Shown here: in pieces, positions 13,766-40,336 of the stretch
How the letters are laid out: each line of letters starts with the position of its first letter
Position numbering within the stretch: position 1 is the first letter of the stretch
Assembly: GCF_037975245.1 (NCBI RefSeq)
Contig: NC_092582.1
Coordinates: 9,263,501-9,327,500, forward strand
Direction: 5' to 3'
From: Apostichopus japonicus
Lineage: Eukaryota; Echinodermata; Holothuroidea; Aspidochirotida; Stichopodidae
DNA: 64,000 nucleotides
The notes under the pieces: model-generated
Databases searched by the model: none
Told to the model about the DNA's origin: nothing
The model's input: only the letters and a program-made list of their open reading frames with translations
Position numbers and translations under genes: made by a program

Positions 13766-14024
13766 TCTCACAGGATTACTTGTGTGTTTTTCTGTTAGCT
13801 TAACACACATTCTTCAAAAATTACATTTTCCCTTGTGCCATATTATTTGTTGATAAATGGCATTTATGGGATTGTTTGATTACCTTCCACTGTACACCTA
13901 AACCGAGTAATTATCAAAATGACTTATTATCGTTATTGGGGGGGAAATATTTCCATCTTTTTTTTCTCTCCAGGACTGATTTATTGAGAGGAAAGTTTGA
14001 ATCCTTACATGGTGGTTAAGAATT

Positions 14025-17000
14025 ATGGACTCACTTTTCACAGAACCTTCCATGGAGAAGTCTCCCAAGGTAAAATTATAGCATTCCATCATATTTATTC
14101 CTTGAATTTTATATTCTAGTAATTTATATAAATTGCAACTTTTTCCCCCCAATGATGGGTCAATACATGCATGTGGTTGTTCCTCCTTTAAAGTACATCT
14201 TTCATAGTAAGTTAATTAAGTCCTACATTAAAGAACTCAGTTACAAACAGTTTTCCTTTGGCCATTGCCTTATCATTAAGTAAGATATTGAAAATCACTT
14301 AAAGGCGTTTACTCCATAAATAAACATTTATATTTTCATTTCTTTTGTATGGACTCAAGAATAAATATCCTGTCAAATGTGTGTGTAGATGTGGTTTGTG
14401 TATAATCCCTATTAGCTAATCTTTCATCAAAACTAACCCCTTCATCTCCTCTGTTTTTTAAAAAAAAAATTATGATACAGAAGTTGTCACCCATTGTTAT
14501 CTGGGATGCAAATAGCTAGAAAGCTTCTGTATTGTTCCAACTACAGCAGCCCTGTCCTTGTCTAAATGCAATAACTCTGGGTAGTGACAGCTCATTTTCA
14601 AAAGTAATACAGTACTTAAACAATCTGATCATGTAATGGTAGAAGAAATAATGTTAAGGTCGGTTTAATTAAAGCCTACTTTCCTGGCTGCAAGTTTTCT
14701 GTGGTGCTGCAAGTGAATGGCAATGTAATGCTGTACCTCAGTCATCATACTGTTCCTTACATTAGATCATCTCGCATCCAAGTTTGTGAAAATTACAGTC
14801 CATTCTCTGATAATGTATGTGAGAGTAAAATGAAATAGTGTCAAAATATGGGGAAAAAAGGAACAGTTATTCCATACGAATACACAACAAATGAGGATCT
14901 TGTCTTAACGTGTCTAAGTGGCATGCATGACAATGGATATATGCTATAGCCTTACATCTCATGTAGATCTATAAAGAGGAAAGTAAATTTACATCTATGT
15001 AAATTTACTTACATCTTATTTAAATGATATGACTGTACATAGTCTCTTCTGTCTGAAATGAGCTATTTCGTTTCCATTCAAATAAGAAGCAAGAATTCTC
15101 CTTTAACAGACTTCAACCCAGACAGATGCCAATCTCTTCAAAATTCCATTTTCTGCTACAAAGTTAAGACACAGCTTGTCGGAGGGAGGCAAGCCGCTGC
15201 CAAAGCCTCGTAATGGGTATCACAGAATGCATTCCTTTCATAGCACACTGTCAGGTAAGAGTTCAGTTGGATTTGACAGAGCCTCTGCGTTTCAAAGTTG
15301 TTATTATTATTTATTCTCCCTGCCTTGACCTTTTAGGGATGTCATCAAACTCCAAGCCAACAAAATCCAGGGGTCATATTTTAACTCCCTGCTGCCATCT
15401 GCCCAGAAAGAACCTTTTCTATTTATAAGCTGGCTGTATTTGTTCAAGTCTCAAAGTGACTTGCATGTTAATACATATATGTATACATCTAAATACTCAA
15501 TATTGTCCTTTCCTGTATATCCATGGCTTCTGTCATCTTTCACTAAGCTAGATTACATAGAATTCTTATTTATAACAAGAGTGGTAATACACTATGTAAG
15601 TACTCAAGTTTATTTTGACACCAGATTTAAGATCAAATTATAAATCTTTTCTTTCTCTTTTAGAATTTATTTATTAAGTCCATAAATTTGCATAATCCAG
15701 GAGATATTTATTTAACTTTTGTTTTGTTTTGCTTTGCAAATTCAAACTGTCTGGAATAAATGATTGTGAAGTACTTAACCCCTTTAATGAAATAATTTCT
15801 TATTTAATATGTCAGGGAAATGGATTATAATTTGATGATCCCAGTAGTTTGGATTGTGGTTTATAACTACATATGTCAGACTTGGTACGCACCAGACGGA
15901 GACATAATATTAAGAATAATAATAATCATTACTGTCACTTACGTAGCAACCATGTATATTTACCATAACAAATACCGATTTTATCACGCATTAGAGTCTA
16001 CTTTAAAAGACATTTACTAAAGTAATGATTTCATCAGCTTTGAAAGTTTGGTTATGACTTCTGTTTTTGGCAGTTAGTAATTAAAATCTAACACAGGAGC
16101 CTGACACAGGATTTGACATTTCAGGGGGGTATGAGAGAGGAGGGGGGATGGCAAGAGTCTGTTCAATGCTTGTTGTTGGAGTTAAAAAATCGTTAAGGTT
16201 GAAGTTCTTGTATGAATTAGGCAAGGCCTTCTCACTAGTTCTACTTTGAGCTGTGTTATTTGTAACTTGTTATACCCACACACATAAGTGTGCACAAGAT
16301 AAACAATTGTTCCTCAGGGACTGCAGTGTGCTCCATCTATGTGTCACCTGGGGAAATTCCCATTGGGTGCAGCCACACACGGGTGCATGCAACAATATTT
16401 ACACAGTTACCTCGTAGGGTCCCCATTATTACACCTGGGTAAAGAACTTTGCCTTCGGATGCAATATATAATAATCTAGCTGCAGGACTTGAACCTGAAA
16501 TCCATAGATCGCAAGTCCATCTCCTTTTATTTGGCCACCACTCTTCACAGTGTTATTGTGCCATTTGGGGTCGCACCATGCAAGTCTGCATAAAAATCAT
16601 TGTTCTAAAAAGTATCGTCATCCAATATCTGGGCCCTGGCTGCACCATCTGTTTAATATTTAAGCATAATTTTGAATAAATCTCTCATTCCTAACAAAGG
16701 AATTTTTATAGTTACAATCATATATAGGTTAGAACACTTGATCAGGCAAGTGTTCAATCAATTATGTCAATATAGAAAAGCTTTTTCGTGTCCCACAAAG
16801 TTATGTCAATGTGTTATTCCTGTTTAATTTGCAAGTTTTTAAAGTTTTGGATTAATTCCATTATACGTACCTGTGCAACTTTTGTAAACTAAAACTATCT
16901 GATTATGATTTCGGAGTAACCTTTTCTGTTCTTGTTGCAATTGTTTTACCATCAGATATCTAGTGAAAAGATTACCACAAAGTGCAGCTTTAAGATTCAC

Positions 17001-20000
17001 TTATGCTTTAATCATCCAATTATGTAGAAGCAACATCATAATTCTCAGTGGTACCTTATAATATCATACATCATAGAAAGGGTAATCAGTTCATGGTCAC
17101 AACTTCTCACTAACTTCAACTTTCCTCTTAAATAGATGGTAACTGGGATGAGGATGATAGACCAACCTCACAGAGTCCATCCTCTGAGTCTACCTTTTTA
17201 CCTTCAGAGTTCAGAGACACAATCTTCAAAGATTTTCCAGGCCTGAGCAAAAATGGATTCCATGTAAGTATTTATAGTTTTAAATTGAACCTTATTTTTT
17301 ATTGAAAATCCCAGAATTTATCAATTTCCCAAGTGTCTAGCTATCTCCTATAATCTCAATTGCTTTACTGCCTAATATTTTACTTTACTTAACAACTTGG
17401 CAAGGAAGATTTACGATTTGACAAGTAACAAGTAAGAATTGACTTCAGTAACAAGGATTTTTTTCTCATATGGTTTACCAATGTGTAACGTAACTTGGGA
17501 GTAATTTTACTGTGTTAAGTTATGTTGGCTATAAGTTTGGGTTGTCTGTTATAAATGCTTTGAATATGTGGTGTAGTGGTAAGCTATCAGACTATCAAAC
17601 ACTTAGTTAAATTAACTGTTTGAAAATGAGTTAAATTTATTGTTTGTCTGGTCTTTGTGACAGTAATACAAGTTTTATTCTTACACATCTGGAACCCCAC
17701 CACAAGTTTGTGATTATGGGACCAAATGTTAAGTTGTGTTGAAATTGTAGCCTGTGACGGCCCCATAAAGTCATAGCTGTGACAGTAAATACTGGGTGGC
17801 ATAGCAACGTACTCTGTGTCCCACCTTGATCTTGAGGACCCTGTTAAGGGTCATTTCTATCTTTCTCCCCCCCCCCCCCCCCACTCCATCTTCAAAAATA
17901 TGCAGGAAAGATTAAACTGGTCACAAACATATAAACCTTTAGGACGCCTTTGACTGTCTCTCTTAGAGCATTTCCAATCAACACTGATATTTTAATAACC
18001 TAATTAATTTGAACTAAACATCTGGGAAATGTTTGACAGATTACAACTTGCTGTTAATTAAAACTAGACACCTAAATAAGTTTCAAGATTCTAAAGTTTG
18101 CCAGCTCATAAAGCTAATAAATTGCAATGTAATAACTGTATAGCATTTTAAATCGATATACATGTGTAGTATCAAATCAACCTCAACTAGCTAAAAACGT
18201 CATCTGGCTTATTAATTAATCGTTTGTTGGTCCTAAAAGTGGTCACAAAAGTTAGCCTAATAGTAGTCATAGTCAAGCTTCCAGTTTTATGGCATCTCTA
18301 TGTTTGGAACAATCATAGGAGAGTAATACCTAATGAAGTATTATGATGATTATTTTTGTTATTATTGTCATCTTTTAATGAGGGAAGTCCTGCTCAATGT
18401 AACCAGGGAGTTGTTATGGAACAACTCGATCCCTGGTATAGCTAGAGTAATAATAAGAGAAGTACCAGGTCTGCTTCCACACATGTGATCAGAATCATTG
18501 AGACTTTACATCAGATGGCCTTCTATGACATCACACTTTCGGGGAATTATAAACAGTGAAACTATATTACCCAACTTTACCCACCTTAAATCCACAGAAG
18601 AACTTGCAAATATATATACGAAACACACAACCTTAATGGCAAAATAACATTCCCATTTTGATATCAAGGGATCACTTAAATCTTTGTTGAATACGTCAGA
18701 CAAAATTTAAAAATAAAAATTAAAGATCTGGAGCTACTCCAAACATGTTATTTTCTCTCCGCCAAACCCCTGGTCCCTACGGAGTCTGTGCAAACCTGCG
18801 TCATTACAGAATGTCTTTTTAAAGTGTCAGGCGATCTACTTCTCGGTTGATATACGATCATCCCCAGGCGAAAGACGAGAAGTTATTAAAACTTCCTTGT
18901 GGTGTCAACATTGGATAGCAAAGAACTTTCCAGAAGAAGTACTTAATGTCACCTTCAGCCTGTGACTTTAGTTTGAACTTCTCTGACGTCAATCCAGACA
19001 ACTGCACATAAATGTATGTATCCAACGATTGGCAGCTTGAAACATTAAAGTAATAACTTGCGATAACTGGCAGCTTGAAATATTTCAGCCACGACGATTA
19101 ATCAAGAAACTTAAACGATCATCGAGACATGAAGCTTCAAGATTTTGTTTTCCGTCAGAGTATATCTTGACGATGGACGACACATCTGATGATGTGGACG
19201 AATCTTTTATACAAGTTTTGTGAACAATGTCCAATTTGAAATTAGAAAGGGCCAGTAGAGGATGCTAGTTAAAAAATGTATAGAGAATATTGCTTTCATG
19301 TCATTTTCATATTTGTTAGTTGTTCAACTATTTCACTAAACCTGCCAAGTATTATTCAAAATGACATGATTATTGATCAAGCTAACTGAAACCCAATGAG
19401 GGATTTATGAATTTGATTCAATTCCTAAAATTTCTATCCACCCAGACTTGGGTTTTTAATATAACAATATGGAGAGAAAATTTAAAACTGTTTGATATTT
19501 CGCTTTATTTTTTGAAAGGTAATTTCATTTGTCAAGTTGATAAAATTACATATTTGCTATGTCAATTGAGTATCAAACAGCAACCAGATCAACATTCATG
19601 AAATGGACTTAAAAGAAAACTTAACTTAAAGTGATTTCATGTGATTTCATGGAATTGAAAGATTTTCCTATTTTATTATTTCTCTATACAGGGAAATTTA
19701 CCTATTTTGTCATTGACATACAGTAAAAAAATTGCTTGTATTTGAGAAGAAGTTTGACTTGTCAAGCTTTAAAATGACATATTTGTAATCTGAATTTAGT
19801 ATCGAACAGGACCAAGCTCGATATTCTTGAAACGGAATTCAAAGATCATCTTAAACTTTATTATTATATCATGATTAATCAAACTGCTTGATTTCATCCT
19901 TGAAAGATTGCTCTTAGTTTATCTTCTTCTCTCTACGCTGAATATTGACTCATCCACCAGCCGACCGTAAGAAAGATATCTGCTAAGTAACTTAGTGATG

Positions 20001-23000
20001 GATGTACGTATTTTGATGTGAGGTTTGTTTTAATCTATATTAACTTCTCATTGCGACTACTTCCTGACATTATTTCACGTTAATCATTGTATTAGCGTTG
20101 GAATTAAATGTGAGAAATTCCAAAGTGACACCAACATATGGACCTCATTTGTTCTGATTTTATTCATCATGGTCTGTGAATGTCGAATTAGAAAAAATCA
20201 TTAAATCCTTAAAGGGTGTGAAGAATCCCGCACAAAGAAACGTCTCATGCAGGTAATCTGACCTAGTTTCGAATGAGGTGTAACAGAAGTGTTAGACACC
20301 ACCATCGATCCCAGAAAATACACACACAACTTGCTACCGTCTGTAATTAGACACTAGTGTACAGTCAATACATACAGCTACGGTCAATACCCACAGCACA
20401 GTGTACATAGCAGCATGGACATCTCAGGTCTAGATAAAAGATAACAGGTATCACGTTCATTACTGTCTGCATTTTGTAGTGACAAGAAGAAAACTTCACT
20501 TGCAAGCAATGGAAAGTTAACTTTTTCAGAGCGCGGCACACGGTTTGGGGCGAGTCTTCAATGCCTTTAATGATCAAAATTTGCATGCTGCAGGAGATTA
20601 GTAACGGGGATATTAGAAAGGTGTCTATATTTGTGCTCTTGCCACATTTGAAGTTAATCTGGCACTGGAAGGGAGATAATAAAATGGAATTATTCTGACG
20701 CAGGGAATAATTTATAGATCTGATATCGCATTGCAAAGTGCTATGTAAAGTAATCAACTTGATATGCGACACCAACGATATTGTAACACTTTCCTCCATG
20801 AGAAGCGCCGGCCAGCCGATTCAGGGTTCTTGGCCTAAGATGTTGTATTGTAATTGGCCAGAGAATGAAGATGTACACAAAATAAATCCAGAGAGGTGAT
20901 GGTATGTTTGGCAGCGATATATTGAAAAGAAAACTTGTTACAGTAAGGTTAAGTGTCTTGTACTGGATATACTAACTTGAGGCTACATGGCCCTGAAGCC
21001 TACCATCAAGAGTGTTTCGTCCAATAGCAACAAGACCAGAGTAGACTGTTCTGTCCCTCCCAGGTAATGCATTTTATATAAATCCCTCAACAATACGTGG
21101 AAATACCACATGTATATAAATGATGAACTTTACCCTACAACTTAGCTTAAGCCATAATACACAAATACTACCGTGCATTCCTACCATCCCCAAACAATTG
21201 TACTCCTTTTACAGAGATGAATGTGATCACATGAGTATCCCTAGAAAATATCACATGTGTTACATCACAATCCCAGGATAAGCCTGATACCACATGCCAA
21301 TCCATAGGAACAGCCCCAAAAGCCATAATCTGCCAACAATTACAACTGGTTTACTTAATGCCAGGAGAGATAACCCCTATATAAGTCCAAGGGGATTTAA
21401 ACTACCACAATGGTTCCACACCATCCACACAGAACTCCCATTGCTCCACAACTTTACAGTAACAGTGTTACAATATAATAGCATGTATTTATGTACACAG
21501 AAATCATAGTACTATATAAGAGACAGAAATTTTATCTGATAATGCATGACAAAATTCTATGCAAAGTAATCAACTTGATATGCAACACCAAAGATATATA
21601 ATAGCATGAGTTGGGAATGAACTTCCATCTCATGGTAAAGGAAGATGAAGCTAAACAGGTTTTTCTTTTCAAAAAGTTTACAGTAGTGTAATGATCTCCT
21701 TCCAGCATTGTAGCAACATGTAGGACCACTTGTAGAGAGAAAGAGTAAGTAAGAAAAGTAAGAAGTAATTGTAAAACAATAATTCATCAAGCTATAGGAT
21801 TAATAGCATTTTAAAGGAAGGACTTTAAGCAAGCTTAATGCAAGGTTTCACTTCCAAAAGAGGGGTGGATGGTGGTAATCATATACAGTAGTTCTCTAAG
21901 TATATAATAACTGCTAAGAAGTCTCCACTATCATTGTATTTCTTTTTTCCTACCCCCTTCCCTTAATCCTCTCTTTGTCCCTCCACTGTTTATCTCCCAC
22001 CTCTCCTCTTCCCCTGTTGGTTTCTTTCTTTCTTCTCTCCATCCCTTGTCTACTAATCCCCTTACATCTATCTCTTTGTGTTCACCATGCTCATTAACCT
22101 GTCTGTTTTCTGTGCGTGTTTTTCTCCCTTCTGTTACTGTTACTTGTCATTTAGCCTTTGAAGAAGATCCTGCTAGGATCGAAACGTCAGGCCAACTTAC
22201 TTTTACACATTTCTTTTGTCAACATTTAAAACAAACTTACGTACATGCATTTCTGTTTTGACTGCTCATTGTCGTTATTCATAAATCTGTTCGCTACTAG
22301 TTTTACAATGGGTTTTGACGACCTTACGTTTGTCTTATGATCATTGGGTTGTTTTGTCAACGTTTATAACAAAATTATGAGTATGTATTTCTGTTTCAAA
22401 TGCTCATTGTCAGTTTCATTAAGAAAGAAAAAAACTTCACTATCCATTTACAAAGCCCTTTGACGTGTTAACACCTGTCACATGATGAGCTGCTATAAGT
22501 AGGTTACGGAGCTCCGCACGGCATCAAAGGAAAATAGTCTTCTGATAGAGATATAACTGTCAAGTGAATTAGCTAGGTTGTAATTTACAGTAGGGCCATG
22601 ACGAGACACACGTACAGGTAATATTAATAAACCTTCTGGAAAATTAATAAATGACTTCGGTCAGACAATTCCTTCCCTGGGAGAAAGAGATAAAAAGCTC
22701 TCATGAAAATTCCTTGAGATGGCGAGGGTCGAGATATATCTGACAAGTCGCTGTGTGATGGAGAAGGTTGGACTATTTAAAGGAGCTCTGTTTACAGTAG
22801 TTTCTAAGTTTGATCACTTTTTAGAGAGATTGTTTGGCTCTGTTCCATTTACTAAATATGCTTCTTTCTCTAACATAGAATTCGGTGAAATGTTATCACC
22901 ATCCAGGTTACATGTACTGTACAACAGGATGCATGATATGGATTTAAATAACTTTATCTGACAAGTTGCTGCACGATGGAGGTTGGACTTTTTAAAGGAG

Positions 23001-26000
23001 CTCTGTTTGCATTAGTTTCTAAGTTTGATCACTTTTGAGAGAGATTTTTTGACTCTGTTCCATTTGCTAAATATGCTACTATCTCTAACATAGAATTCGG
23101 TGAAATGTTATTACCATTTTTTACATGTACTGTACAACAGGATGCATGATAAATATATACTAAATATGCTACTATCTCTACATAGAATTCAGTGAAATGT
23201 TATCACCAATCACCATCCAGATAACATTTGTACAGCATACATGATATGGAGTGAAATTATTTTACCAGATTTAATTAGTTTTCTTTGTGCATATATATCT
23301 CCAAAGAGGCAACTGTTTCTACTTCTTCTTGTGTTCTAGCTACCTCTGAAATGTTTGTTATACTCAGGAAGCAAAATGATAACAATCTTTTAACAGGGTA
23401 GCTGTAACTTTGGGAAAGGTGTACATGGGATCTGCAATTAATAGATCGGTTGGAATTATATTTAGGGGTCACCTAGCAGGAGGCATCTAAAATTAAAGAG
23501 ATTTGTTTATAAAAAGATGTATTTTTGTAGCAGTGATAGAGCTAGGCCATGCCATGCAATGGAGGTTATTTAGCAGGCAGTGCTCATTGTACATAATAAG
23601 AATTATTAGCGATTAAAATATTATTCCTGACCATGGATGCTCACAGAAAATGAGCCAGACAGAGGGGGAAGGGGGAGGGAAGGAGTTAATTTAGGAGGGA
23701 GTTTCCAGTGATCCAAGTACAAATTTTACTACTTGCTACATGTAATGAATATGGTTTATAAATTTGACATGTGGTCATGTAGAAATTGTCACAGTTATTA
23801 TTACTGAATAAATCATATTATAGTAATATTTCTTTTAATTTCCGCCTCTTCCAGAGTCATAGTTTTGATGGAGATATTTTTGAAGAAACTGCTGATAAGT
23901 TTTCCTCTGGGTTTTTTTCAGGTATGTATTCCTCTCATATTATTTCTGTTTTTGAGTATTCTCCTTCCTCCCCCCCCCCCCGCCCTATCCTTCCCCTCCC
24001 CTTTTAAATTTTAAAGATAATATTTGATGGAAAAATTACATACAGGATGTTCTTGTAGTATTGTTGGTTTTTTATTCATCAGGGTATTTATAATTCAGTC
24101 AGTCAAACGTAGTGCATGTTCATAATAATATATTTATGTAGCATTTTTCCTTAAAGTATATCTCAAAGCAATTCAGTTCACATTGGGATCAGAGAGAAAA
24201 TTCTTAAAACATAAAAATATGAGATACAAGAAGATAATAAACATATTTAGCATCTTGTCGTTGTATCTAAAGTGGCTGGATTAGTTAGTCTAATATTCAG
24301 ACTATTAAAGGCATTGAAGACTCGCCCCAAACCATGTGCGGCCATCTGAAAAAGTTAACTTTCCGTTGCTTGCAAGTGACGTTTTGTTTGTGTCGCTACA
24401 AAATGCAGACAGTACAGTAATGAAACGTGATACCTTGTTATATTTAGCTGGACCTGAGATGTCCATCGCTGTATTGTTTGTACAGTGTGCTGTGGGTATT
24501 GACCGCAGCTGTTTGTACTGACTCTACACTAGTGTCTAATTACCGATGGTAGAAAGCTGTGTGTGTATTTTCTGGGATCGATGGTGGTGTCTAACACTTC
24601 TGTTACACCTCATTCAAAACTAGGTCAGATTACCGGCACTAGACGTTTCTTTTTGCGCGAGTCTTCACACTGTCTAAGTCAGTTCCTCAGATGTGAGACT
24701 CAAAAGTACATCGCAAAATGCAAGCAATTTTTGTAAACATGCTAAATTGGGTCCATGGTGTTGAATGACATCCAAGATGTGCTCTAGATCTGTTGTTCAT
24801 GTGAAGTTAAAAAGGATTTGTTCGACCTGAAGTATTAGAATTTATAAAACAATGGATTGGCATTGAAGCATGCACTGCTGAGCAGACATCTTCATCATGC
24901 ATGATTAATCAATCCTTAAAAGAATTAATTATTCCAGAATACCAGCTTATTTTGAAGATCAAATAACCTAAAACCCAATATAGATGTAGAAAACATTGCA
25001 TGATAATGCCAGTTCTCATTTTTACCAGTTCTTGGACAACGACATATATATTAAGACTAAAATTCTGCCTAACTTAAGTCACCTTCAGGCTTCAAATCTA
25101 AATTTACCAAATTATAGTCTGTTTTATCAGTCACTGAAATTTTCTCCTAGAAAGATACCTTGTATAGATTTATGATCAAGTTGTATACACACATATATGT
25201 AGCTGTGGATACAGTGTCATATAACATAATTTATTTATTGAAACAGACCCCTAGATTATTAGCTGGATAAAAAATGTAAAGAAAATATGTTAGACAAGCA
25301 TTGAACGGAATGTTGTACCGATGAAAATGATTACCAGTAGGGTACATATGTAATGTTTGTTTATTTTGGGTTCACATTATCAGTGACATATCGCTATGGT
25401 TACATAGATCACGTCAAACAGAAGGTATACCCAATGCCAATTTTTCAGAGGTACCTACAAGGCCTAAAATATACCAACTGATATGGACGGTGAGATAGAC
25501 GTCATAAAAGCACATGCCAATGTTGCGTACAGCTGGTGTACATGATACAAAGCATGACTACATTACAATGTGAATTATGTTATAATGTTTAGTTTACGTG
25601 ACTGACATGCCTCTCTATGTTCTATTCAGAGTCCGAGATTGATGTCATTCCCAGATCCTCCCTCTTCCAACGAACCGGTTTGAGAAGAAGCACATCTCAA
25701 GTCGAGCCCGAGCGCCACAGACGAGGATTCAGGCAGAATTGCGAGGAGGCGGCAGCTCAGGAATCTGACGAAAGAGACTCCAGGGTGAGGACACTCTTTA
25801 TAATTATGGTTGATTTATATTCTAAAATTCAAATCACTTTCAGGCGTGCATATATACCAGGAGGAGTCTGACCATACTTCTTACAGATCTTAATCAGATT
25901 TATGGTGAACGTTGATATCGAGATTAAGCCTGTGTTATTGTTGGCAGATCGCACCAACTCACCTCCAAGTAAAAAAAGGTTTCTTTTTAATCTTAATTTA

Positions 26001-29000: not shown

Positions 29001-31534
29001 TTGCTAACTGTTGCTATGTTTATAGCATCGTAAAATTAAGCTGGACACTGAATATGTGAAGCATATTAAAACAGTACTGCATGGATGTGGTAACAAAAAT
29101 TCAGTGAATACTGTCATGCCACTTTCAGTTGCATGAACTTAAACTTATCAGAGCTTTATAAGATAATAAGCCAAAAATAACAAATATCATGTAAAACTAG
29201 GTACCCAAACTTGAAGTTTCCAAGACTGCACACGTCAACAAATTGCTAAAAGACTGGAGTAAGGTTTGAATTTTATGGCCATCTTTAAGCTTTTACAATT
29301 TTTCTGTCATTTTTATGATAGTAAACTTAGAGGACTAAAAATCCATTCAATGGTCTACAAGGGGTCATTCCCCTCCTCCCGGCCTCTTGCTTGGCTGGGC
29401 CTGCCATTATGTCTAATATAATGCAATTTTAACTTATCTAAGTAAATTTATGATGGTTCTGTTTCTGCAGCATGCCAAGATTGAAGAGCTGATTAGGCTA
29501 AAGAAGAAATTGGAAGATTTAAAGGCCAGTTGGCAATCTAATGGTGACAAGGGTGACCAGCATGAACAGAAGGTCTGTCAAAAGGAGGCCAAGGAAGGAA
29601 AGGTATTGAGAACTCATCTTTTAGCTGTTAGTCAAAGAGTATGGAAGGATAAGATGCAGGGGGGGTGAGGGAAAGGGGAAGGAATGGGTGCATCTGAGTG
29701 TTATAGAGTACTTTTCATTCTTTTAATCAGTTCATTTGTTACGGAAAACATCAAAAAGAAAGCAATATTACTTACTATTTAATTGAGTGTAACAAGAGCT
29801 TTTTTCTAATTACCATATCAAACACAATTTAGAATCTGTGTATAATAACAAAGTAATTTCTGTTTTGTTTAACTTTTTTGCTTTAAATGAATGTTTATTA
29901 ATAGCATTAAGGTATAATTAACAATCAATTAAAAAGTTCAATACACTGGTGTTATTAAGTACTCCTGATATTAAACTTTCAAGAGTATTCTTGAATTTCT
30001 TGAAAAATTGTTAAATTTTGTAAGATGGTGGTAGCATGTGAGTTTATTATTCACATCAGTTTCAAACAATTGATTAAAAAAAAACTGTAGGTAAATATCA
30101 CGATATATTTGATTGTCAGATCAAGTAAAGTTTGTGAAATATTTGCTTTCTTCCAATTCTATGTGTTTTTTTTTTTTCCTTTCATTTCAGGAAGAGGATT
30201 TGTTGGAAAGTCGTCTGAAGACACTAAAAGATAAAGGGAAGATGAAACGTAGAAGGTTGTCATCCTCTAAACGTTGTAAGAATTTCATTTTTGTGGTAAA
30301 AACTGCATTTTGTGTTTTGGAGTGTTATCTTATATCAAACTTAAAGAAAATTCTAAAGAAAACCCTGTGTCTCAAAAATTAATGTTAACGTTTCTATTTT
30401 TCCAATTGCAAACCTGGTTGAAATGTGTGTACCATTTCATTGTTCCTGGTGTAATTTTGGTGAACTAACCAGTAAAGTGGGTTTTCTGATTTCCATCAAA
30501 GGATAAAACTTGTTGTTACCACCAGGTTTTGTCACTTGTAGGGAGATTGCCAACATCGTAAAGTTTGGTCATAGTCTGTTTAACATTTTCGTAATACTAA
30601 CCTTGGTAATTAATGTTCAGCCTATCTTTTGTTTAACATTTACCATTTGATTCAAATTAATATATAAAAGTGTAAAATATTTTCTTTTCACCATACCCAT
30701 TGTTAAGGAGTTACAGGTGGATACAAATTTAGGGGGGAAAATGTTGCTAAATATTTCCCATGTTGCCATACCTACTAGTCCTTTACTCACATTAATAGTA
30801 CTTACAAGAGGCCATTCAATCATACCGCTTTGAGCACTTAGCCCTTTTTTCTATCATTTTGGCTAATTACTATTTTTGCCAATGAATAGACCGCCACAAA
30901 TGTATATCAATTATGTCAAAATGACAAGGAAATTAAATATATGTCTAAAGCCCAGCTTGTAGCGATTTTGGTCTCATTAAGAAAGTAATATATCACAATG
31001 CTATAAATTATTCATATTTAAAAATTATTAAGTTGAGGATACAAACCAGTTTGCTAGCTTTTGAAATCAGGTTAACGAAATATCCACAGTTTAGCCAATT
31101 GAGGGATGGCCAATAAAGATTTGACTATACTTTATGAACACCACACTTCCTTTTGATATTTTATTGGTTTGAAATGTAAAAGCTATGGACTATTAGAACA
31201 AACAAGTTTGTTAGGATTCAGGCTTTTCTATAGACAACATATTGCTACGATGGACGTATAATGGTAACGTTTAATGTTGCAAGGACTCCCACACAAGTAT
31301 GATAATTGGGAGTAAAATGGACAAACTAATTTCTGTGAAAGTGTTTGGGGGCATGGCCCCTGTTATCCTTCCCCTTGCCAATGTCAGGGGCCCGGAAAGA
31401 GAATATAGTCAGTGATAGTCTTTATTATGTAACTGTGCTTCATCAATTAATCCTTACCTGTTTATCTTTTCTTGGTTCTTAGCTCAATCTCTCTCTTCAA
31501 AACTCATGGAGGAGCTTCTGGAGGAAGATGAAGG
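14025..31534 (+). CDS. SAM-RING gene, exons 1-8: disordered N-terminus and coiled coil
   Basis: Exon 1 starts in 5' UTR at about 13974; the first ATG (14025) opens MDSLFTEPSMEKSPK. Exons 2-5 encode 165 residues rich in serine, charged residues and arginine (ends: phases 1, 0, 1, 0) without a known domain. Exon 6 (29471-29602) begins HAKIEELIRLKKKLEDLKA, a likely coiled coil. Exon 7 (30191-30275) continues the charged helix and ends in a basic patch that could be a nuclear localisation signal. Exon 8 (31483-31534) is a 52-base micro-exon encoding MEELLEEDE. Introns are long (up to 6.6 kb), in contrast to the compact 3' half. Confidence 0.75.
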
Positions 31535-34500
31535 GTAACCTTTTTCGAGATGAACTTTCTCTTCAAATAACTTCTTTTGTTTAAAGTTGACCATTAATTT
31601 ACAGATGAAAATTGCAATTAATTTCTTATAAAAGTTGGAAGTCATTGGCATTTAAACATGTTTTCAGGTTTTTTTTATTTATTTATATAACTTTTTTGTA
31701 ATTTTTATGTTACCCACTTTTTTTATATGAAAATTGTATTATAAACAATATAATATAAGAATTAATGGAAACAGCATACAGAATAGGTAGAAAACCATCT
31801 ACAGAAAGGATTTTCGGCTTACCATTGGATAACGTAAAGGGTGGCTCTAGGCAAAATGTCAGTCTTGATATGTCATAGCGAACAAAAAAAGAAAATTTAG
31901 GGTTATAATTAATGTTGTGTGTAAGTTATTCAGAATTAAAATATGCTTAATCTAACAAATGCTCCTCTAAGATTACTAATTTTAATGATGATGTCGTTCA
32001 GTGCAGGCCTAAATGTTAATGTTCAATGATCGTTTGCTTTATAGATTCTAATAATGCCACCAAAATATGTTCATTAGCATCATATGTGGACAACAGAGCT
32101 CCCAAACCATTTGTGCTTTAAAACTTTTGAAATGCAATGTAAGTTTATCACTTGAGGCTATAAAAAATATCATGCTTTTTAATAAAGCTAATCATTTATT
32201 TTTTCAACTGGAATATTACAGAAGAGAGAACTCACAACTTTAACATCTCTTGTGTCTTTTATTTTATTTAAATAGTTACAGAGTTTGAGACAGCTAATAA
32301 CAGCATTCATGTTACTTGCCAATTTGCAGATCAACAGAGATTGAAACTTTTGACGATGACGACATAAAAGTGGAAAAGGAAGCAGCTTCATCAGCAGTGA
32401 ATGAAAATTGTCAAGGATCGCTGAGAGACGGAGCGAGATATAAGACTGATGAAAAGTTAAAACAGAGTGAAACTTCAGATGAGTTTGAAAGTGAAAGTAG
32501 TCACATGTCCCCTTCCAGTGTCAGACAAACTAGGCTCGATGACACATCAAGATGGAGCGAAAGAAGGGATACCTCCGACCAAGAGATCAGTCCAGCCTCT
32601 ACACCCTCAAGTAATCGACAGAGAGACACTGATTATGAATTAATATTTAGAGGAAGGCATGACGAAGACGATGATGACATTACTCCTAGATATAGTAGCA
32701 GAGACAGGTTTAATGACACCCAAGGAACATGTCAGAAAGATCTCGGTTGTGAAGAAGATGATGATGACATTACTCCTAGATTTAGTAGAAGACACAGGTT
32801 TGATGACACTAGAGGAACCTGTCAGAAAGATGTCGATTATAAAGAAGGGGACAAGGATGTGCCGTTTTCGTACGTCAGAAGACGACATCAATATGATGAC
32901 TTATCAAAATGGAGTAAAAGACATCAATCTGATTCTGCAAGAGCTATGTCACTGTCAGACATGTCACCAACAGATAAGGGAAGAAGTCAGCTAAACGCTG
33001 CTCCAGTACAGAATGAGAAACTTATCGATTCTGAACCAGAGGATGAAGATTGGTCACCATCAGATAGTAGGTTTGATGATTCCAACAGATGGAGTACCAG
33101 AGGTACAGATTATGGTCAAAAAAGTGATTATCCAACAAAAGTGGAGAGGAACAGGTCAGATAAAGCCACTAGAGGAAAGAGTGGAAGATCGACTGAAGTA
33201 GAAGACATAGAAGCCAATTTAGGAAGAGGAAGCAGTTGCAATGTCAGACCGAGAGACAGCAACTACAAACGACATGGGTCATCGAGCGAGACTAGGAGAA
33301 GTAAGTTTGATGATGCTGCAAGATGGTCTGGGAGAGGTTCTGATCCAGAAATAGATATAAATCGCCATTTTCCATCCTCACCTGGAAGAGAGAAAAATAA
33401 TGTTGATACTAACTTTCGACAGAGAGGGAGAGATATTATCGATCCCAAACCAGAGGGTGGATATGAACCGTTGTCATATAGTAGGAGAAACAAGTTTGGC
33501 AACGTCTCTAGAGAGATTGAAAGGGGCAGCGAGATAGAAGATGGTCGCTTCTCACCATCTTATGAGACAAGAATGAATGAGCCTTTACAGCGCAGTGAGA
33601 GTTGCATTAATTCCGATTGCAAAAGCTGGAAGGACGAACATAAGGATAGCTTTTTCACAGAGTAAGTTCTTTGGCGAACACATGATTTTTAATATCTGAA
33701 CCTGTGATGATGAATTTCGAGAGACCAGGGCATTGAAAATGCATTGTTCATATTCATAATGAATACTTAATATCTGTAATTGACCCTTTATTCAGTCTGT
33801 AATATAGTGTTCAGTACAATTTTGGTTTTAGTTTTAAACAAGAAAAGTTGGAAATGGTAATTGGAAAACTAAAGCCAATACTATAGGGAATGGCGTATTG
33901 TAGATAAAGGTTTAAATGCAGTCCATATCTATAAGTGGAAAACGTATACACACAGAGTACATTGATCCTTTTCATCAATTTCCTTTAAAGGGTAATCTGT
34001 ACTCTTCTTTTTCTTTGTTATCTTTCAATCTCAGGGGAGAAGGTATCTCTGTTAAGAGAAAACCCCAAAACAGACCTTTTGCTGGAAGGAAGACCAGTCT
34101 AGACAATGAGATCATTGGATCTAGCTCGGGTCAGAAGTTTAGAAGAAGTTATTCCACATCGTATGATGTAAATGAATCGGGGAGAAGAACAAATTCATCT
34201 AGGTTAGGAAGCTCTCGGAAATCTGACAGGTAATTATTGAAATATTATTTGTACCGTACATTGCACAAAGTTTAACCTGACATAATACACTTCACTGTTG
34301 TCGTCCTATATACATATATTGATTACTCATCAGCAGGGACATGTAAACCATACTATCTTGTTCTTTTCTTTTATCTGAAGTATATGATGACAATGAGAAA
34401 TACATAAATTCTTTATCCCATATTTGCCCAACAAACCCCCTCATCCCACTCATCCGGCCTGCTGAGCCAGTTATATATTAATTTCAAGTTTCATACTTTC

Positions 34501-37500
34501 AAATGATTTCAACAGTGATGATGAGAAAGTTAATCCTGACATCTGTAGCAACTTCAGGAGAAGGTCACAAGATCTTGAGGAAGAAGCTAAGAATTACAAC
34601 ATCCAGCAAGACCGTACTTTCAGCATCCGTTCTGAAGATAACTCTTCCCATCAGGCTGCAAAAAGCTTTGCATCTGCTGCGGTAGATTTCAAAGATAGGA
34701 TGGATAGACCATTCTTAGGAACAGGAATGTTAGGAAGATCACCTGAAAGGTGAGTATTATTTAAACTACAGCAAAATTACAATATAACTTTATAACCCGG
34801 CCTATAACAAGCCTGGATGAACTTCTTTTGTGGGTGGGGATTTAGAAATATGTTGGTAATACAAAATATATTTCAAAAGTTGGAATGCATTGAGTGGAGG
34901 CAGAGAGAGGAGTGAAAAATATGGTTGTTGAAGGGTAAATAACATAAGAGCAGTACATTTGCTATATAACTAAATAAAATGTTGGATGTAAGAATATGAA
35001 ATCAGAAATTATAAATAAGTAGAAGTTGATGGCGATCGAGGCATAGCAATGAAATTGTTTGAACTAACTAATTGGTCAGCATCCCAATATGAAATGGGGG
35101 GGGGGGTGAGGGGCAACAAATCCATCATTTACTGTGAATATGTTCCCTTTTTTTTAGGAAAAGCAAGCAGTCTGTGAGACCTGACAGATTTGGTGTGGAT
35201 GATATTTTCAAGAAGTTTTCCATTCCGAGTAGAGATTTCTTTGAAGATGAATTTTTTGCCAGTGATTGGAAGAGGCACCGATTAATAGAAGAGGTTTGTA
35301 GATTGATGCTAAATATAACTTAGGCTAAATGAACATTAAGAAAGAAAATAATGCTAAAACCCTATGATCTATAATTTCAGTCTTTAAGTCACCTGACAAT
35401 CAGATATTAAGTTTCTATCAAAGTAGGTTTCATTACTATAAATCATGTATTTTAATATGTTTTCTTTTTATAACTGCATGCCCTTTAAACACAAGAGGAT
35501 TCATAAAAGAGGCTGAGGTCTCTAGTCCAGTAAACATATTTCATTTCATTTGTTTCCTTTCACAACAACATACAAGTAAAAAACAAAGCAATCAGTGTAC
35601 AGAACATCAGGGTAATAGTACATGTTGTGAAAAGGGAAGTGTGCTACTAAATACCTGGTGGGCTTGACTCTAGCACACTCATTGAATGTAACAGTACCAA
35701 AGCAATACATACATTGCAAAACAGACAAAAATAAGTTACGTCACTTAAACTAGCTATAACTAGATATAAATACCAGTAAGTCATCTCCTCAGAAACATCC
35801 CAAACTTTACCATAAAATACGATGGCCCTAGAGCATAAATCGAAACATGTTTACAATGTATTACTACTTTTACATTAAGAATAATTGGTGGTTGATGACA
35901 TCTTTGCATATTTTTATATCTACATAAAGTAAAAATACATTTATAAATTGAAGTTATTGTAAAGTTTCATAACACACAACATTGGGTTAACATTCGCAAT
36001 TAGGAATTGACCAAGCAACAGACTAATCATGAGTAATGAACATTTCAAACATTTTCATTTTTCCTACAATTTTTCGTATGACTAATTTTCTTTGTACAGT
36101 ACAAAATTAAGTATAAGTTGTTTGTTATTTTTTGAACATTTCGGAATAGATCGGAGGTATTCAAAGAAATCTTGCTGACATTACCAAACGAGAATTAGGG
36201 AAAAGGAGGAACACGCAGGGAGATGAGAAAGAAGAAACAGGCCAGCCATCACGACGACGGGATTGTGAGGATGTAAAGATACGAAGAAGTCCCAGTGTAA
36301 TTGACCTTCAGACGGAAAGGTCAAATCTTACTGGTTTACTTAAACAATTAATCTGTAAGAAACAGGAGAGGGAACAGCAGATAAGAAACAGAATTGTAAG
36401 TAAAAAACAGTCTTTTAACATCTTTTACTGTATTCTACTTTGGAGTTTCTGTTGCGCCCATGTGAATTAAATAACTACTAAGACCTCTGTAACTAATACA
36501 TTTCACTGACACAGTCAATTCATACACAGCAATATGGTTGAAACATTTGATTTTTGTTTCCTTTGATCAACATTTGTTACTTAAAAGTCAGACCCTCTGT
36601 CTGTTTTAGAGTAAACAGTTCTAAATAGTCATATGTGTATGAATCTTTTTTTCTTCTTTTTGACAATTGTTTTGACCTTAAAGATTGGGTTTATTTGTGC
36701 ATATGTAATTAATATAGTCACAACAAGAAAAATATATCTTATGTGTCCATTTTGAGGTTTTTTAATTTTAGTTTGCATAATATCAGATATCAACCTGAAC
36801 ACATTTGAATCCGTATGCTATGTTAGTAATATATCCGTCAAGATTCTTTCAAGGGCACTTTAGTCCTGGAGTCTCTGTTGTGTTCATGTGAATGCAAACT
36901 ACTAAGAACTCTGTAACTAATACATCTCACTGCTACAGTCGATCCATACACAGCAGTATAGTTGCAACATTTGAAATTTTTATGCCTTTGGTCAACAATT
37001 TTCCCAAGGACCAACTAAAGCATGAAAAGCAGACTGAAGAAGGTGAGAAGCAAGACAAAAATGGCAGGCTAGGTGAAGATGGAGAGGAAGAAGAAGAAGC
37101 AAGATGCAACAAAACAGATGAAAGAATTGAAATAGTTCAGGTAAAGAATGGCCGGCTATTCACAAAACTATGAAGAGAAAAAAGTAGTATTTTGATTCTG
37201 CTAATCATTTCAAACAGAAATGTCATGATCTTTATATTATTTTAGCAATGCCATAAAAAAGGAGTAAATATCACAATGGATTCATTTAATCTATACAAAC
37301 ACTGATCACCTTCCGATACATAAAAAAAACGGTGGGATTTCTATCGCGACGTAATATCAGAAAAAAAGTTCTCCAAAAGTGGTCATTAATCACTGTGGGG
37401 AAATATATTTTCCAGAGATGAATAACATTGAAAATAATATGACCATTTCATGTTCCTAACTTGTATATAAACTAGTAAGACTGCTGTATCCTGCTGGTAA

Positions 37501-39920
37501 GGACTCCTCCCCAATGGTTGCTGAGAAAGTATATAAACCCAATTGTCTTTAAATGCATAGTGGTCTGCACATTAGCCTTTCTTTAACATTTTTTTATTTG
37601 CCAAGTCCGTCTACACCATTTTTGGTTTTGCAAAAGGGGAAAATGTGGAGTCAGTCAGACTTTGCAAAATTGTGAATGGGGCCGCAAAGTCGGTATCTAC
37701 TATTACGATTAGATTCCTCCAACACGGCAGCATACAGAAACGTTGTACTCAAAGCCGAAGCCAAAGTGAATTAATCAGATCACACATCCAGGGTCTATAT
37801 ATGCTAAGTTCTTCAATACCGCCTTCCTTACATAACGGGGAAACATTTCATTCTGTAGTGTTTGATATAATTGTTTGTCTCTAGAGAGACGGTGAAGATG
37901 AGGTGTCTTTTGTTCTGAGGAGAGCTGGAGCAGATGATTTCATTCCAATTATGAAGAAGAACGAGATCACCATTGATAGGCTCTACCAACTAATGCCCTC
38001 AGATTTCATAGAGGTAGGTCTAAAGTTATGAAGGAATTATCTATCTACGTAATAAGTCAATCTCTTTTTTTATCCTTTCAAGTATTACATACGCCAAATT
38101 TTACCAAAGGTAAATCTATGAGTAAATGAAATAGAAAATGAGTGTCAAGCTAAAGAATTATATAAAAAACTACAAAACTTTCTGTGCATGGTCTGTCTCT
38201 TCACTATATCACAGCTTGGAATAGCAGACCCAGAAATACAAAGACGTCTCCAAGAGGAAATTGATAGGCATTTTGTGGAACAGAAAAATGCTCAGTTGAA
38301 AGCAGCGTCATTGGAGAGGCCGACTACTGACAGTAAGAGCAAGGATGAGAAGGAGGAAGATGTGGAAGGGAACAAGGAGTTAGGAGAACCGTGCACCCCA
38401 ATCTCATCAGCGCCACAGGGGTACGAACCAGAAGTGCCTGTTCATGTCAGCGCTGAATGCGTGGTTTGTATGGATAATCAAGTAAGTATCATTTGGAGTT
38501 TTGTGTGTTCTCACTGCAACAGAGAGAAATTCTTTGCCAACAGAATGCTGCTGTATAAATCAACGTTGTATCCTTGCTCATGGTGGTTGCAAGGATTAGG
38601 ATTGAGCCGTGTGATATTATTTGTAAAAAGTTTGATTGAAGTCAGTCCAACTGAGAGATTCATGAGGTTTAAAGCCAATGCAAAAGTGTTTGGGTCCCAC
38701 AAAATTTGAAATATAATTTATTTACTTCCTTTGTAAAACTTCAAGTGAAGTTAATATCTTATTTCATCATACCCTGATTATATCGTAACTCTGATTCAAT
38801 GGTTGAATACATGATGCTACCAGAAGATAATTGGAGATTAAGTCTTAATTTGCAGCTTTGAAATCCATATCCAGCATTCTTTATACTCAATGCCATGCTG
38901 GGCAAATTAAGTATATCTATGTTGCATAAGTGTTATAGATACGTTCAACATTGTGATAGGTATCATAAATGAGATACAAACCCAAACATCATTATTGATC
39001 TATGAGAAAGAGATAAGTAGTGTCATGAACAGCTTCCCCAAATAACTAAGACAAATCTTGTTCCATTTGGGAGATATTACAGATTTAATGTACCTTCCTA
39101 TGTATGTGTGAAGATTTGATCAAGCCTAAATATGACATCATCGAGCCACATGTGCTTTCATTTCTTTGCGTTTTTGCTTTTATTTCTTGGCAATCTTTAT
39201 TTTCTAGAGTGGGTTTGCAAATGCTGACTCTAAAACATTGAAGTTGTCTACATGACTTACTCAGTAATAATGGCAGTGGTTTCAGTGTAGAAAAACTGTT
39301 AAAATTGCACCTTGAAAATATGAAGAGAATAACAAAAGTGGAAGTAAAACTTTCAGATCCTGGTGGCACTATGACATCACAGATTTATAAAATGGCAGCT
39401 CCCAGACAAGACTTTTAAACTAGGATATCTCTTGAATGGAACAAGTTGTTCCATAGCTCTTTGGGGAGTTGTTCTTCGCAAAGATCTATGTTAGCCTATA
39501 TAAGCTAAGGATAATGCTTGGCTTTGTCACCCATTTAACAATAGTTACTATTGATGAAGCCTTCCAAGTTTGTTGACATCCACATACCCAAGAGATTTAA
39601 TAAATAACCAAAAGAGTGTCATATGCATGTAACCTTAAGTTTAATGTCCCTTCACTTCTCGTCCAGACGAGGATACTAGCTTTATAGTTAGTCATTTGTC
39701 CTCCCAATTTTCTTTTTTTTTTCTTTGGGTTCTACCTCAAAGTAAGGCTGATGATTTCTTTTCTCTTTATCTACAGTCAAATCTTTTGTTTCTCAACTGT
39801 GGACATGTTTGCTGCTGCTATGACTGTGCCATCAGTCTCAGCCTCTGTCCTCTCTGCAGATCAGAAATTGCATCTAAACTTATCATGAATGATAGCCTGC
39901 CGGATGCCAGTGAACTATGA
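14025..39920 (+). CDS. LRSAM1-like SAM and RING E3 ubiquitin ligase, 1207 aa, 17 coding exons
   Basis: Exons: 14025-14069, 15110-15254, 17136-17263, 23855-23921, 25630-25784, 29471-29602, 30191-30275, 31483-31534, 32330-33661, 34035-34229, 34516-34749, 35158-35293, 36150-36395, 37009-37140, 37885-38013, 38215-38481, 39777-39920. Every junction has AG/GT borders and matching phase; the total is 3624 bases. Order in the protein: disordered acidic/serine-rich N-terminus (1-180), short coiled coil (about 181-250) ending in a basic KRRRLSSSKR patch, repeat-rich disordered region (about 338-680), charged linkers, a second helical stretch (about 960-984), SAM domain (about 1030-1095), linker, C3HC4 RING (about 1153-1188). 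The RING (ECVVC, NCGHVCCC, CPLCR) and SAM closely resemble LRSAM1, which ubiquitinates TSG101 and acts in xenophagy. The N-terminal leucine-rich repeats of LRSAM1 are absent and the protein is much longer than LRSAM1 (about 720 residues). The ligase role is inferred from the RING; substrates are unknown. Confidence 0.85.
16270..16560 (-). mobile_element. tRNA(Ser)-derived SINE, minus strand
   Basis: Read on the minus strand from about 16550, the element starts with a tRNA(Ser)-like head: GTGGTGGCC, a degenerate A box, GATGGACTTGCGATC, a short variable arm and a perfect-looking B box GGTTCAAGTCC. The body follows to about 16270 (CCCAGGTGTAATAATGGGGACCC and onward). It lies in intron 2 of the SAM-RING gene. 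Left and right ends are approximate; no target-site duplication was confirmed. Confidence 0.6.
18402..18437. other. Short intronic hairpin
   Basis: ACCAGGGA and GTTGTT on the left pair with AACAAC and TCCCTGGT on the right, with a 4-base bulge and 4-base loop. It lies in intron 3 of the SAM-RING gene. It is too short for a typical pre-miRNA; function unknown. Confidence 0.4.
20213..20566 (-). mobile_element. TTAA-flanked MITE, copy 1
   Basis: The 354-base element is flanked by TTAA on both sides (20209-20212 and 20567-20570). Its ends form an imperfect terminal inverted repeat (AGGGTGTGAAGAATCCCGC against AGGCATTGAAGACTCGCC). TTAA duplication is the hallmark of piggyBac-type transposition. 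The 144-codon minus-strand open frame that runs through it is not matched by an intact frame in copy 2, so it is not counted as a gene. Confidence 0.65.
20720..21600. repeat. Short direct repeat pair in intron 3
   Basis: A 65-base segment at 20720-20782 (core AAAGTAATCAACTTGATATG, then CGACACCAA) recurs at about 21534-21600 with few changes. It is probably the remains of another dispersed repeat. Confidence 0.5.
22148..22420 (+). repeat. Repeat with hammerhead-ribozyme-like core
   Basis: TTGAAGAAGATCCTGCTAGG followed by ATCGAAACGTCAGG shows a perfect GATCCT/AGGATC stem followed by GAAAC, as in helix II and the 3' core strand of hammerhead ribozymes carried by Penelope-like elements. The 5' core reads TTGAAGA rather than CTGANGA, so it would be inactive. 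Downstream, a segment at 22208-22275 is repeated at 22353-22418 (TTTTGTCAAC...TGCATTTCTGTTT pattern). Confidence 0.35.
22737..23250 (+). repeat. Tandem repeat, 218-bp unit, two full copies and a partial third
   Basis: Units begin TATCTGACAAGT at 22737 and 22955; a third partial unit (about 23159-23250) starts within the motif CTAAATATGCTACTATCTCTA. Unit 1 contains an 80-codon open frame beginning at 22719 that is broken by a frameshift in unit 2, so I treat it as chance. It lies in intron 3 of the SAM-RING gene. Confidence 0.75.
24309..24673 (+). mobile_element. TTAA-flanked MITE, copy 2 (inverted relative to copy 1)
   Basis: The sequence is the reverse complement of copy 1 across its whole length with scattered differences. 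The left flank is TTAA (24305-24308); the right flank is CTAA (24674-24677), a one-base decay of the target duplication. The two copies lie on opposite sides of coding exon 4 (23855-23921) of the SAM-RING gene. Confidence 0.65.
28550..28685. repeat. AT dinucleotide-rich microsatellite
   Basis: Alternating TA/ATAT tracts within intron 5 of the SAM-RING gene; no other structure seen. Confidence 0.7.
32330..33661 (+). CDS. SAM-RING gene, exon 9: 1.33-kb exon encoding degenerate RFDD..RW repeats
   Basis: The exon follows TTTGCAG and ends at GA|GTAAGT, keeping phase 2 at both ends. It encodes about 444 residues, very rich in Arg, Asp, Ser and Glu, with no globular domain. A motif recurs about seven times: RLDDTSRWSERRD, RFNDTQGTCQKD, RFDDTRGTCQKD, QYDDLSKWSKRH, RFDDSNRWSTRGTD, KFDDAARWSGRGSD and KFGNVSREIERGSE. 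It is often preceded by an acidic run plus a serine/proline phrase (DDDDITPR, EDEDWSPS). The two middle copies are nearly identical over about 35 residues, so recent duplication has occurred within the exon. No family was recognised. Confidence 0.85.
34035..36395 (+). CDS. SAM-RING gene, exons 10-13: charged linker
   Basis: Four exons (34035-34229, 34516-34749, 35158-35293, 36150-36395) join in phases 2, 2, 2, 0. They encode basic and serine-rich sequence, then a more hydrophobic segment in exon 12 (DDIFKKFSIPSRDFFEDEFF) that could be a short docking motif, and end in exon 13 with a predicted helix (LTGLLKQLICKKQEREQQI). The last may correspond to the coiled coil that precedes the SAM domain in LRSAM1, but I cannot align it with certainty. 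Confidence 0.75.
36441..37005 (+). repeat. Duplicated intron segment upstream of exon 14
   Basis: The segment 36441-36580 (TGGAGTTTCTGTTG through GATCAACATTTG) recurs at 36867-37005 (TGGAGTCTCTGTTG through GGTCAACAATTTTCCCAAG). The second copy supplies the splice acceptor of exon 14; the first lacks the AG. Confidence 0.7.
37009..37140 (+). CDS. SAM-RING gene, exon 14: acidic linker
   Basis: A 132-base, phase 0/0 exon between TTCCCAAG and CAG|GTAAAG. It encodes 44 residues dominated by Glu, Lys and Asp (EDGEEEEEARC). Because it is phase-symmetric it could be skipped without breaking the frame. The acceptor lies at the end of an intron segment that is duplicated 425 bases upstream (36441-36580). 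Confidence 0.6.
37885..38481 (+). CDS. SAM-RING gene, exons 15-16: SAM domain and start of the RING
   Basis: Exon 15 (37885-38013) and exon 16 (38215-38481) join in phase 0. Together they encode the SAM helices (VLRRAGADDFIPIMKKNEIT, then LYQLMPSDFIELGI and a terminal helix IQRRLQEEIDRHF). This matches the layout of the LRSAM1 SAM domain, including a leucine/serine turn before DF/DL. A charged linker follows with ISSAPQ, a weak echo of the P(S/T)AP TSG101-binding motif of LRSAM1; it lacks the first proline, so TSG101 binding is doubtful. Exon 16 ends ECVVCMDNQ, the first RING zinc ligands. Confidence 0.85.
39777..39920 (+). CDS. SAM-RING gene, last exon: rest of the C3HC4 RING and C-terminus
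   Basis: The exon follows ATCTACAG and encodes LLFLNCGHVCCCYDC, then CPLCRSEIASKL and a 14-residue tail ending DASEL before TGA (39918-39920). With CVVC from exon 16 this completes the eight zinc ligands of a C3HC4 RING; the hydrophobic residues around GHVCCC and CPLC that contact the E2 enzyme are kept, so an active ligase is likely. Splitting the RING after the first Cys pair means that retention of the 1.3-kb intron 16 would give a protein with a destroyed RING and a different C-terminus ending at 38709. Confidence 0.9.
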   Translation, partial: SNLLFLNCGHVCCCYDCAISLSLCPLCRSEIASKLIMNDSLPDASEL

Positions 39921-40336
39921 ATTCATATTTACCATATGACATCACATGTATGTGAACTGCAAAATATCAGTTCCTCTCTGTAGATCAGAAATTGTATCCA
40001 AACTGCTTATCATGAACGATATAGTCTGCCCGATGCTAGGGAATTATGAATTCCTATTTACCATATGAATTCACATATATGTGAACTGCAAAATACCAGT
40101 TCCTCTCTGCAGATCAGAAACTGTATCTAAACTTATCATGAGTGATATAGTCTGCCGGATGCCAGTGAATTATGAATTCCTATTTACCGTATGACTTCAC
40201 ATGTATGTGAACTGCAAAATACCAGTTCCTCTCTGCAGATAAGAAATTGCATTTAACTTGATCATGAATGCCAGTGAACTATAAATTGCAATTTACTGTA
40301 TAGAATTTAGTGTAAATGAACTATGAAATATCAGTT
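39848..40336 (+). repeat. Tandem repeat (about 126 bp x 3.8) copying the last exon into the 3' UTR
   Basis: Copies begin with TCCTCTCTG at 39848, 39972, 40101 and 40227 (periods 124, 129, 126). The first copy overlaps the coding end of the RING gene (from the CPLC codons to the stop and about 50 bases beyond). The others lie in the 3' UTR and still show the decayed codons for SEIASKLIM...DASEL. The last copy is incomplete and most divergent. Confidence 0.85.

Follow-up and report, generated by a model that had tools for sequence, protein, structure and literature searches.

A gene on the + strand of the 64,000-nt window (the whole stretch of DNA analysed) probably encodes a RING E3 ligase whose last ~260 residues, comprising a coiled coil of the CC2 type, a SAM domain and a RING, have a common origin with LRSAM1, and in which a long, mostly disordered N-terminus would replace the leucine-rich repeats (LRRs). 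LRSAM1, also named TAL and RIFLE, is a vertebrate RING E3 ligase. If true, a relative with CC2, SAM and RING and without LRR and PTAP separates the catalytic core from the two best-known recruiters, and would allow asking which LRSAM1 functions came with the LRRs.

Seventeen hand-placed exons between 14025 and 39920, rebuilt here from the sequence, join into 3624 nt of coding sequence including the stop, which gives a spliced product of 1207 residues (1207 codons plus stop; Table 1). All 16 introns of the predicted gene have GT...AG ends and none of the 17 exons has an internal stop in the chosen frame, which bears out the exon chain with consistent phases and 1207 residues proposed in an earlier note on this DNA. 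At the stop frequency of the gene's introns (6.45% per codon), exon 9 (1332 nt) would be open by chance with p ~1.5e-13. In a leave-one-out codon score, the chosen frame outranked the other two forward frames in 15 of 17 exons, with another forward frame favoured in exons 7 and 13, and a reverse frame outscored the chosen one in exons 1, 8 and 17, which counts against the model. Three of these five exons are short (45-85 nt), and exon 17 is cysteine-rich.

It is improbable that two genes are joined in this chain, with a disordered protein encoded by exons 1-12 alone and a short CC2-SAM-RING ligase starting near exon 13. Such a division would fit the N-terminal part, in which Pfam recognises no domain, and exon 13, one of the two exons where the codon score disfavours the chosen frame; exons 13-16 all start and finish in phase 0, which would make a shorter transcript easy. 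Against it stand the 16 of 16 junctions, which keep the phase, have GT-AG ends and bring in no stop.

Table 1. Exons of the predicted ligase gene and associated features (window positions).
Feature	Position	Strand	Remarks
Exon 1	13974..14069	+	5' leader with in-frame TGA 13998-14000; ATG 14025; coding 14025-14069; start 13974 inferred from acceptor only
Exon 2	15110..15254	+	holds TQT (residues 18-20) and PLPKPR (44-49)
Exon 3	17136..17263	+	exon chain
Exon 4	23855..23921	+	exon chain
Exon 5	25630..25784	+	exon chain
Exon 6	29471..29602	+	coiled-coil-like by eye
Exon 7	30191..30275	+	basic stretch at its end
Exon 8	31483..31534	+	exon chain
Exon 9	32330..33661	+	1332 nt; Ser/Asp/Arg-rich, hydrophobic-poor
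Motif array, seven copies	32520..33530	+	span derived from the exon table
Exon 10	34035..34229	+	exon chain
Exon 11	34516..34749	+	exon chain
Exon 12	35158..35293	+	exon chain
Exon 13	36150..36395	+	from about residue 955 matches LRSAM1 CC2
Exon 14	37009..37140	+	CC2-like coil ends at ~residue 995, then acidic linker
Exon 15	37885..38013	+	first two thirds of SAM (residues 1029-1071)
Exon 16	38215..38481	+	SAM end, linker, first RING cysteines (residues 1072-1160)
SSAP (residues 1135-1138)	38404..38415	+	near the PSAP place of the provisional human LRSAM1
Exon 17	39777..39920	+	remaining RING (CPLCR, Arg1188), tail, stop
126-bp tandem array	39848..40270, or to 40337	+	starts within last coding exon, runs into 3' UTR

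All comparisons with human LRSAM1 rest on a provisional sequence of 723 residues. This sequence agrees at 5 of 5 residues named in two papers (Glu674, Glu682, Ala683, Cys694 and Leu708; PMC7874611 and PMC4060843), and Pfam finds the LRR, SAM and RING in it. By our own translation, the RT-PCR primers given in PMC4060843 encode LLSQMS and IYHSS-stop, which stand at residue 599 and at the end of the provisional sequence, respectively; the primer names imply 380 nt, and the provisional sequence from LLSQMS to the stop spans 378 nt. The control product of 443 bp mentioned in the text of that paper fits neither, unless a 63-bp larger product was meant.

The description of the product as LRR-less, made in the earlier note, is supported within the window. 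No LRR family was listed by Pfam for the 1207-residue protein at a max_evalue of 10, a setting at which the search filters still remove most matches above ~0.1; as a positive control, the provisional human LRSAM1 was searched against this library and matched LRR_8 at 5.8e-18. A local profile made from four repeats of the provisional human LRSAM1 was run on the spliced protein and on 2112 six-frame ORFs of the window of at least 20 aa; the human control scored 6e-44, and the spliced ligase protein was absent from the match table. A loose LRR pattern matched the ligase once (residue 24), and a strict pattern gave 10 matches in the six-frame window, five of them crossing stops and none in a row. 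Kinship of the N-terminus with the human LRR half was considered and rejected (score 31, below the mean of 36.6 for shuffled sequences, of which 190 of 200 did as well). LRSAM1 has N-terminal LRRs, whereas no LRR was found in the protein here, or convincingly in the window.

The lack of a convincing LRR within the window would also suit a history in which CC2-SAM-RING existed before LRRs were joined to it, the LRR-less form having been kept here and LRRs gained elsewhere. In its favour, a review describes LRSAM1 as conserved among chordates and states that no other phylum has yielded an ortholog (PMC7874611). LRSAM1 relatives outside chordates are nevertheless in print by name: an oyster LRSAM1 appears in the title of a paper, and an oyster herpesvirus annotation table has two ORFs named 'E3 ubiquitin ligase LRSAM1'. 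If the oyster protein is LRR-bearing, the full architecture reaches molluscs, and one genome cannot separate gain from loss. We hold such a history to be quite improbable. Among the titles and abstract starts listed from the open-licence literature, there was no LRR-lacking LRSAM1 relative.

The evidence for shared ancestry with LRSAM1 comes from the C-terminal part. Its RING belongs to PF13920 (50.3 bits vs a cut-off of 27 in Pfam) and has its first cysteine at residue 1153; by reading of the sequence all eight zinc ligands are kept, and Arg1188 in CPLCR presumably takes the position of the linchpin arginine. This C3HC4 RING is C-terminal, closing the protein as it does in LRSAM1. Identity with the RING of the provisional human LRSAM1 is 25 of 45 residues (score 168), and the RINGs of BIRC3, BIRC2 and BIRC7 score lower (130, 120 and 116, respectively). 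The tail aromatic Tyr720 of the provisional human protein aligns with an Asn here. A search of solved structures assigned the RING to the same type as IAP-type RINGs (BIRC2/3/7, XIAP) and those of MYLIP, MUL1 and CGRRF1; similarity to IAP RINGs was strong (best E 1.2e-10), in a comparison where LRSAM1 could not compete, no LRSAM1 chain being among the best 60 of 64 matches. XIAP, MYLIP, MUL1 and CGRRF1 were compared via this search only. Unlike the IAP-type/MYLIP group, the ligase here has no BIR or FERM domain by Pfam.

The SAM domain reached 12.4 bits with Pfam SAM_2, under the cut-off of 20.5, although its score of 87 with the SAM of the provisional human LRSAM1 was attained in 0 of 5000 shuffles (maximum 56). 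Taken together, the SAM-RING block is 32% identical to the provisional human LRSAM1 over 180 columns, with an E of 7e-15 (database size set to 1e7). When the SAM alone was compared with solved structures, ANKS6 (E 0.014) and SAMSN1 (0.084) led, and the remaining 18 of the 20 matches listed were unrelated enzymes. A two-row profile of this SAM and the provisional human SAM listed 29 sequences with ANKS6 first (2.4e-7) and tankyrase SAMs among them, an outcome that draws on the human row; 28 of the 29 are, judging by their names, SAM proteins. The SAM domains of ANKS6, tankyrase and SAMSN1 are the best solved-structure matches of the SAM here, and none of the three proteins is known to have a RING. 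Relative to LRSAM1, the SAM here is without four residues ahead of the last helix; the SAM of SAMSN1 aligns gap-free across this four-residue excess of LRSAM1, with one gap elsewhere.

The coil ahead of the SAM scored 72 with the provisional human CC2 (shuffle maximum 62; 0 of 2000 as good), vs 44 and 34 with two other human coil regions. A single-sequence structure model of residues 948-1207 contains a confident helix at this CC2-like region (block pLDDT 84-93), but is poor overall, with the SAM and RING unfolded and a mean pLDDT of 52.6. Residues ~853-991 had no match among solved structures up to E 1. For a remnant of CC1 in the N-terminal coil two comparisons differed: residues 128-296 against provisional human 251-495 gave a weak but suggestive similarity, equalled by 13 of 1000 local shuffles, and residues 176-270 against human 250-380 were equalled by 436 of 500. 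The C-terminal 179 residues had no match in PHROGs at E up to 0.01, and the prokaryote-genome and viral collections yielded 30 and 4 pattern matches, respectively, none passing tblastn, as expected for an animal gene; an animal source is also suggested by the introns, domains and retroelements of the window.

The position of one intron also corresponds. From the human splice variants c.2046+1G>T and c.2047-1G>A, reported in PMC4060843, the last intron of LRSAM1 separates codon 682 from codon 683; that of the ligase gene here is a phase 0 intron and follows codon 1160. In the alignment these sites coincide exactly (human ECVVCLERE|AQMIF vs here ECVVCMDNQ|SNLLF), such that the RING is split at the same codon boundary and in the same phase in both genes. 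A second human intron, mapped from c.1913-1 at codon 638 (PMC4060843), has no counterpart here because exon 16 is unbroken from residue 1072 to 1160; one of the two mappable human LRSAM1 introns thus coincides.

A SAM and a RING of LRSAM1 type at the C-terminus, as claimed in the earlier note, were recovered, with a RING above its threshold and a SAM beyond all 5000 shuffles, though under its Pfam cut-off, and the label LRSAM1-type can be widened, in that the SAM, the RING, the pre-SAM coiled coil and the RING intron position all correspond. We consider it very unlikely that a general IAP-like RING and an unrelated SAM were assembled convergently into a protein that is LRSAM1-like in architecture only. 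The strong similarity to IAP RINGs and the weakness of the SAM alone in Pfam could be read in that way, but the RING scores higher with the provisional LRSAM1 than with the three IAP RINGs, CC2, SAM and C3HC4 RING follow in the same C-terminal order in both ligases, and the RING intron coincides.

At the 5' end, a TGA at 13998 lies 27 nt upstream of the ATG at 14025 in the same frame, and a plausible acceptor AG ends at 13973. Exons spliced in at this acceptor would be non-coding because the in-frame TGA precedes the ATG. An LRR-coding exon upstream of 14025, which the earlier note had named as able to overturn its claim, gave no convincing match in the profile and pattern searches. The best non-control match of the LRR profile (E 0.099; the next was 0.75) is an ORF at 13448-13585 (+), directly upstream of exon 1, with two weak domains; against the control at 6e-44, an LRR exon at this place or in the introns was rejected and the match taken as chance. 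It is highly improbable that LRR exons exist and that transcripts from another promoter splice them to exon 2 or beyond: exon 2 begins in phase 0, which is compatible with a splice that skips exon 1 and could admit an upstream coding exon, and the chance-level match adjoins exon 1, but its E is far from that of the control, none of the other matches among the ten listed is better than 0.75, and a + strand last exon seems to end at 6422, past which an upstream-reaching gene must run. This neighbour, at 6240-6422, is by our own reading probably where the coding part of another + strand gene finishes; the exon ends ...KPSRYGARRQYPR followed by a stop, has no Pfam match and is reminiscent of the C-terminus of SEC16.

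In LRSAM1 a PTAP/PSAP motif stands between SAM and RING, whereas P[ST]AP occurs nowhere in the 1207-residue protein here, which has SSAP instead (residues 1135-1138), aligned near the PSAP of the provisional human LRSAM1. TSG101 is a substrate of LRSAM1 and is bound via PTAP. Direct recruitment of TSG101 by this route is predicted to be weak or absent in the ligase here.

At the end where LRSAM1 has its LRRs, the ligase has an arm of ~940 residues in which one motif occurs in seven copies. Judged from its composition, most of this N-terminus is probably disordered: residues 271-714 contain 13.1% LIVMF and 39.2% charged residues, and this hydrophobic-poor, charged character makes a folded LRR-like domain implausible. 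The motif, encoded in exon 9, has a consensus of about [RK]FDDxxRWSxR (e.g., RLDDTSRWSERRD, RFDDSNRWSTRGT and KFDDAARWSGRGS). Its 17-residue cores start at residues 334, 392, 422, 453, 513, 591 and 654, with anchors at residues 338 to 658 and a spacing of 30-78 residues. A leave-one-out profile, with p values read from the highest scores in each of 300 shuffles of residues 271-714, recovered five of the seven copies at p < 0.01, with copies 4 and 7 at 0.13 and 0.06; these values are somewhat generous because the copies were chosen by eye after self-comparison. Copies 2 and 3 arose by recent tandem duplication of 90 bp of DNA and vouch for each other in the profile. In an unaided self-comparison this tandem pair scored 99 and the next two pairs 56 and 52, and the highest score in 60 shuffles was 45. 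We infer that this array, which was not mentioned in the earlier note, is a concrete candidate for a new substrate-binding half. Nearer the start of the protein, TQT (residues 18-20) and PLPKPR (44-49) are possible motifs of the LC8 and CIN85 types, respectively; they were reached in 10% and 30% of shuffles and are leads only.

How such a ligase might operate can be proposed from the roles of the LRSAM1 domains, which PMC7874611 gives as transfer for the RING, substrate interaction for the SAM, PTAP and CC2, and dimerisation for CC1 and the LRRs; the N-terminal LRRs number six according to the same review, and in mammalian LRSAM1 they are held to bind bacteria (PMC3777862). By analogy, CC2 and the SAM would self-assemble the ligase and the RING would recruit E2-ubiquitin. 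As CC1 is uncertain and the LRRs are absent, dimerisation would rest on CC2, the SAM or the N-terminal coil. The N-terminal arm might pick its targets by many weak [RK]FDDxxRWSxR contacts, i.e., by avidity, where LRSAM1 would offer a rigid surface of LRRs. In four of the seven copies there is an [RK]WSxR sequence, resembling a site of basic-directed kinases; because of this, it is conceivable that phosphorylation at [RK]WSxR could switch target binding.

The working principle suggested by this comparison, a RING ligase assembled by a coiled coil and a SAM, is LRSAM1-like. The protein should not, on its predicted features, be filed as LRSAM1 since two defining features, the LRRs and P[ST]AP, were looked for and not found. 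Whether it represents an E3 class of its own animal lineage, with the LRR reader swapped for a disordered, multivalent motif arm that is possibly phospho-switched and uncoupled from TSG101, is doubtful, though such a class deserves consideration. Alternatively, the gene could be no more than a diverged relative of the usual kind, already auto-annotated as LRSAM1-like.

Several repeats lie within or beside the ligase gene. The tandem array of roughly 126 bp at its 3' end takes in the last few ligase codons with their stop and runs for three to four repeats into the 3' UTR, with a 70-nt stretch that is 74-93% identical between copies. An inverted repeat connects intron 3 (20208-20580) with intron 4 (24295-24678), with arms of 200 and 120 nt that are 91% and 88% complementary, respectively. 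Intron 13 holds a duplicated stretch of 92 nt (84%) at 36473-36564 and 36897-36988, the second copy of which ends 20 nt before exon 14.

Rfam gave no match at the gathering score across the window. Downstream of the ligase, pieces of non-LTR retroelements occupy 52171-57184, including a reverse transcriptase at 56876-57184 (RVT_1, 1.3e-8) and two matches that stay under their cut-offs, one GDSL-like (52171) and one endonuclease-like (54472); a 138-bp tandem array (52608-53676) lies between these two. A direct segmental duplication is present at 43684-48445 and 60117-64000, its copies 15.3-16.4 kb apart and its matched pieces 83-98% identical; it holds short membrane-protein-like ORFs (48098-48445 and 60676-60999), with no Pfam match above cut-off.
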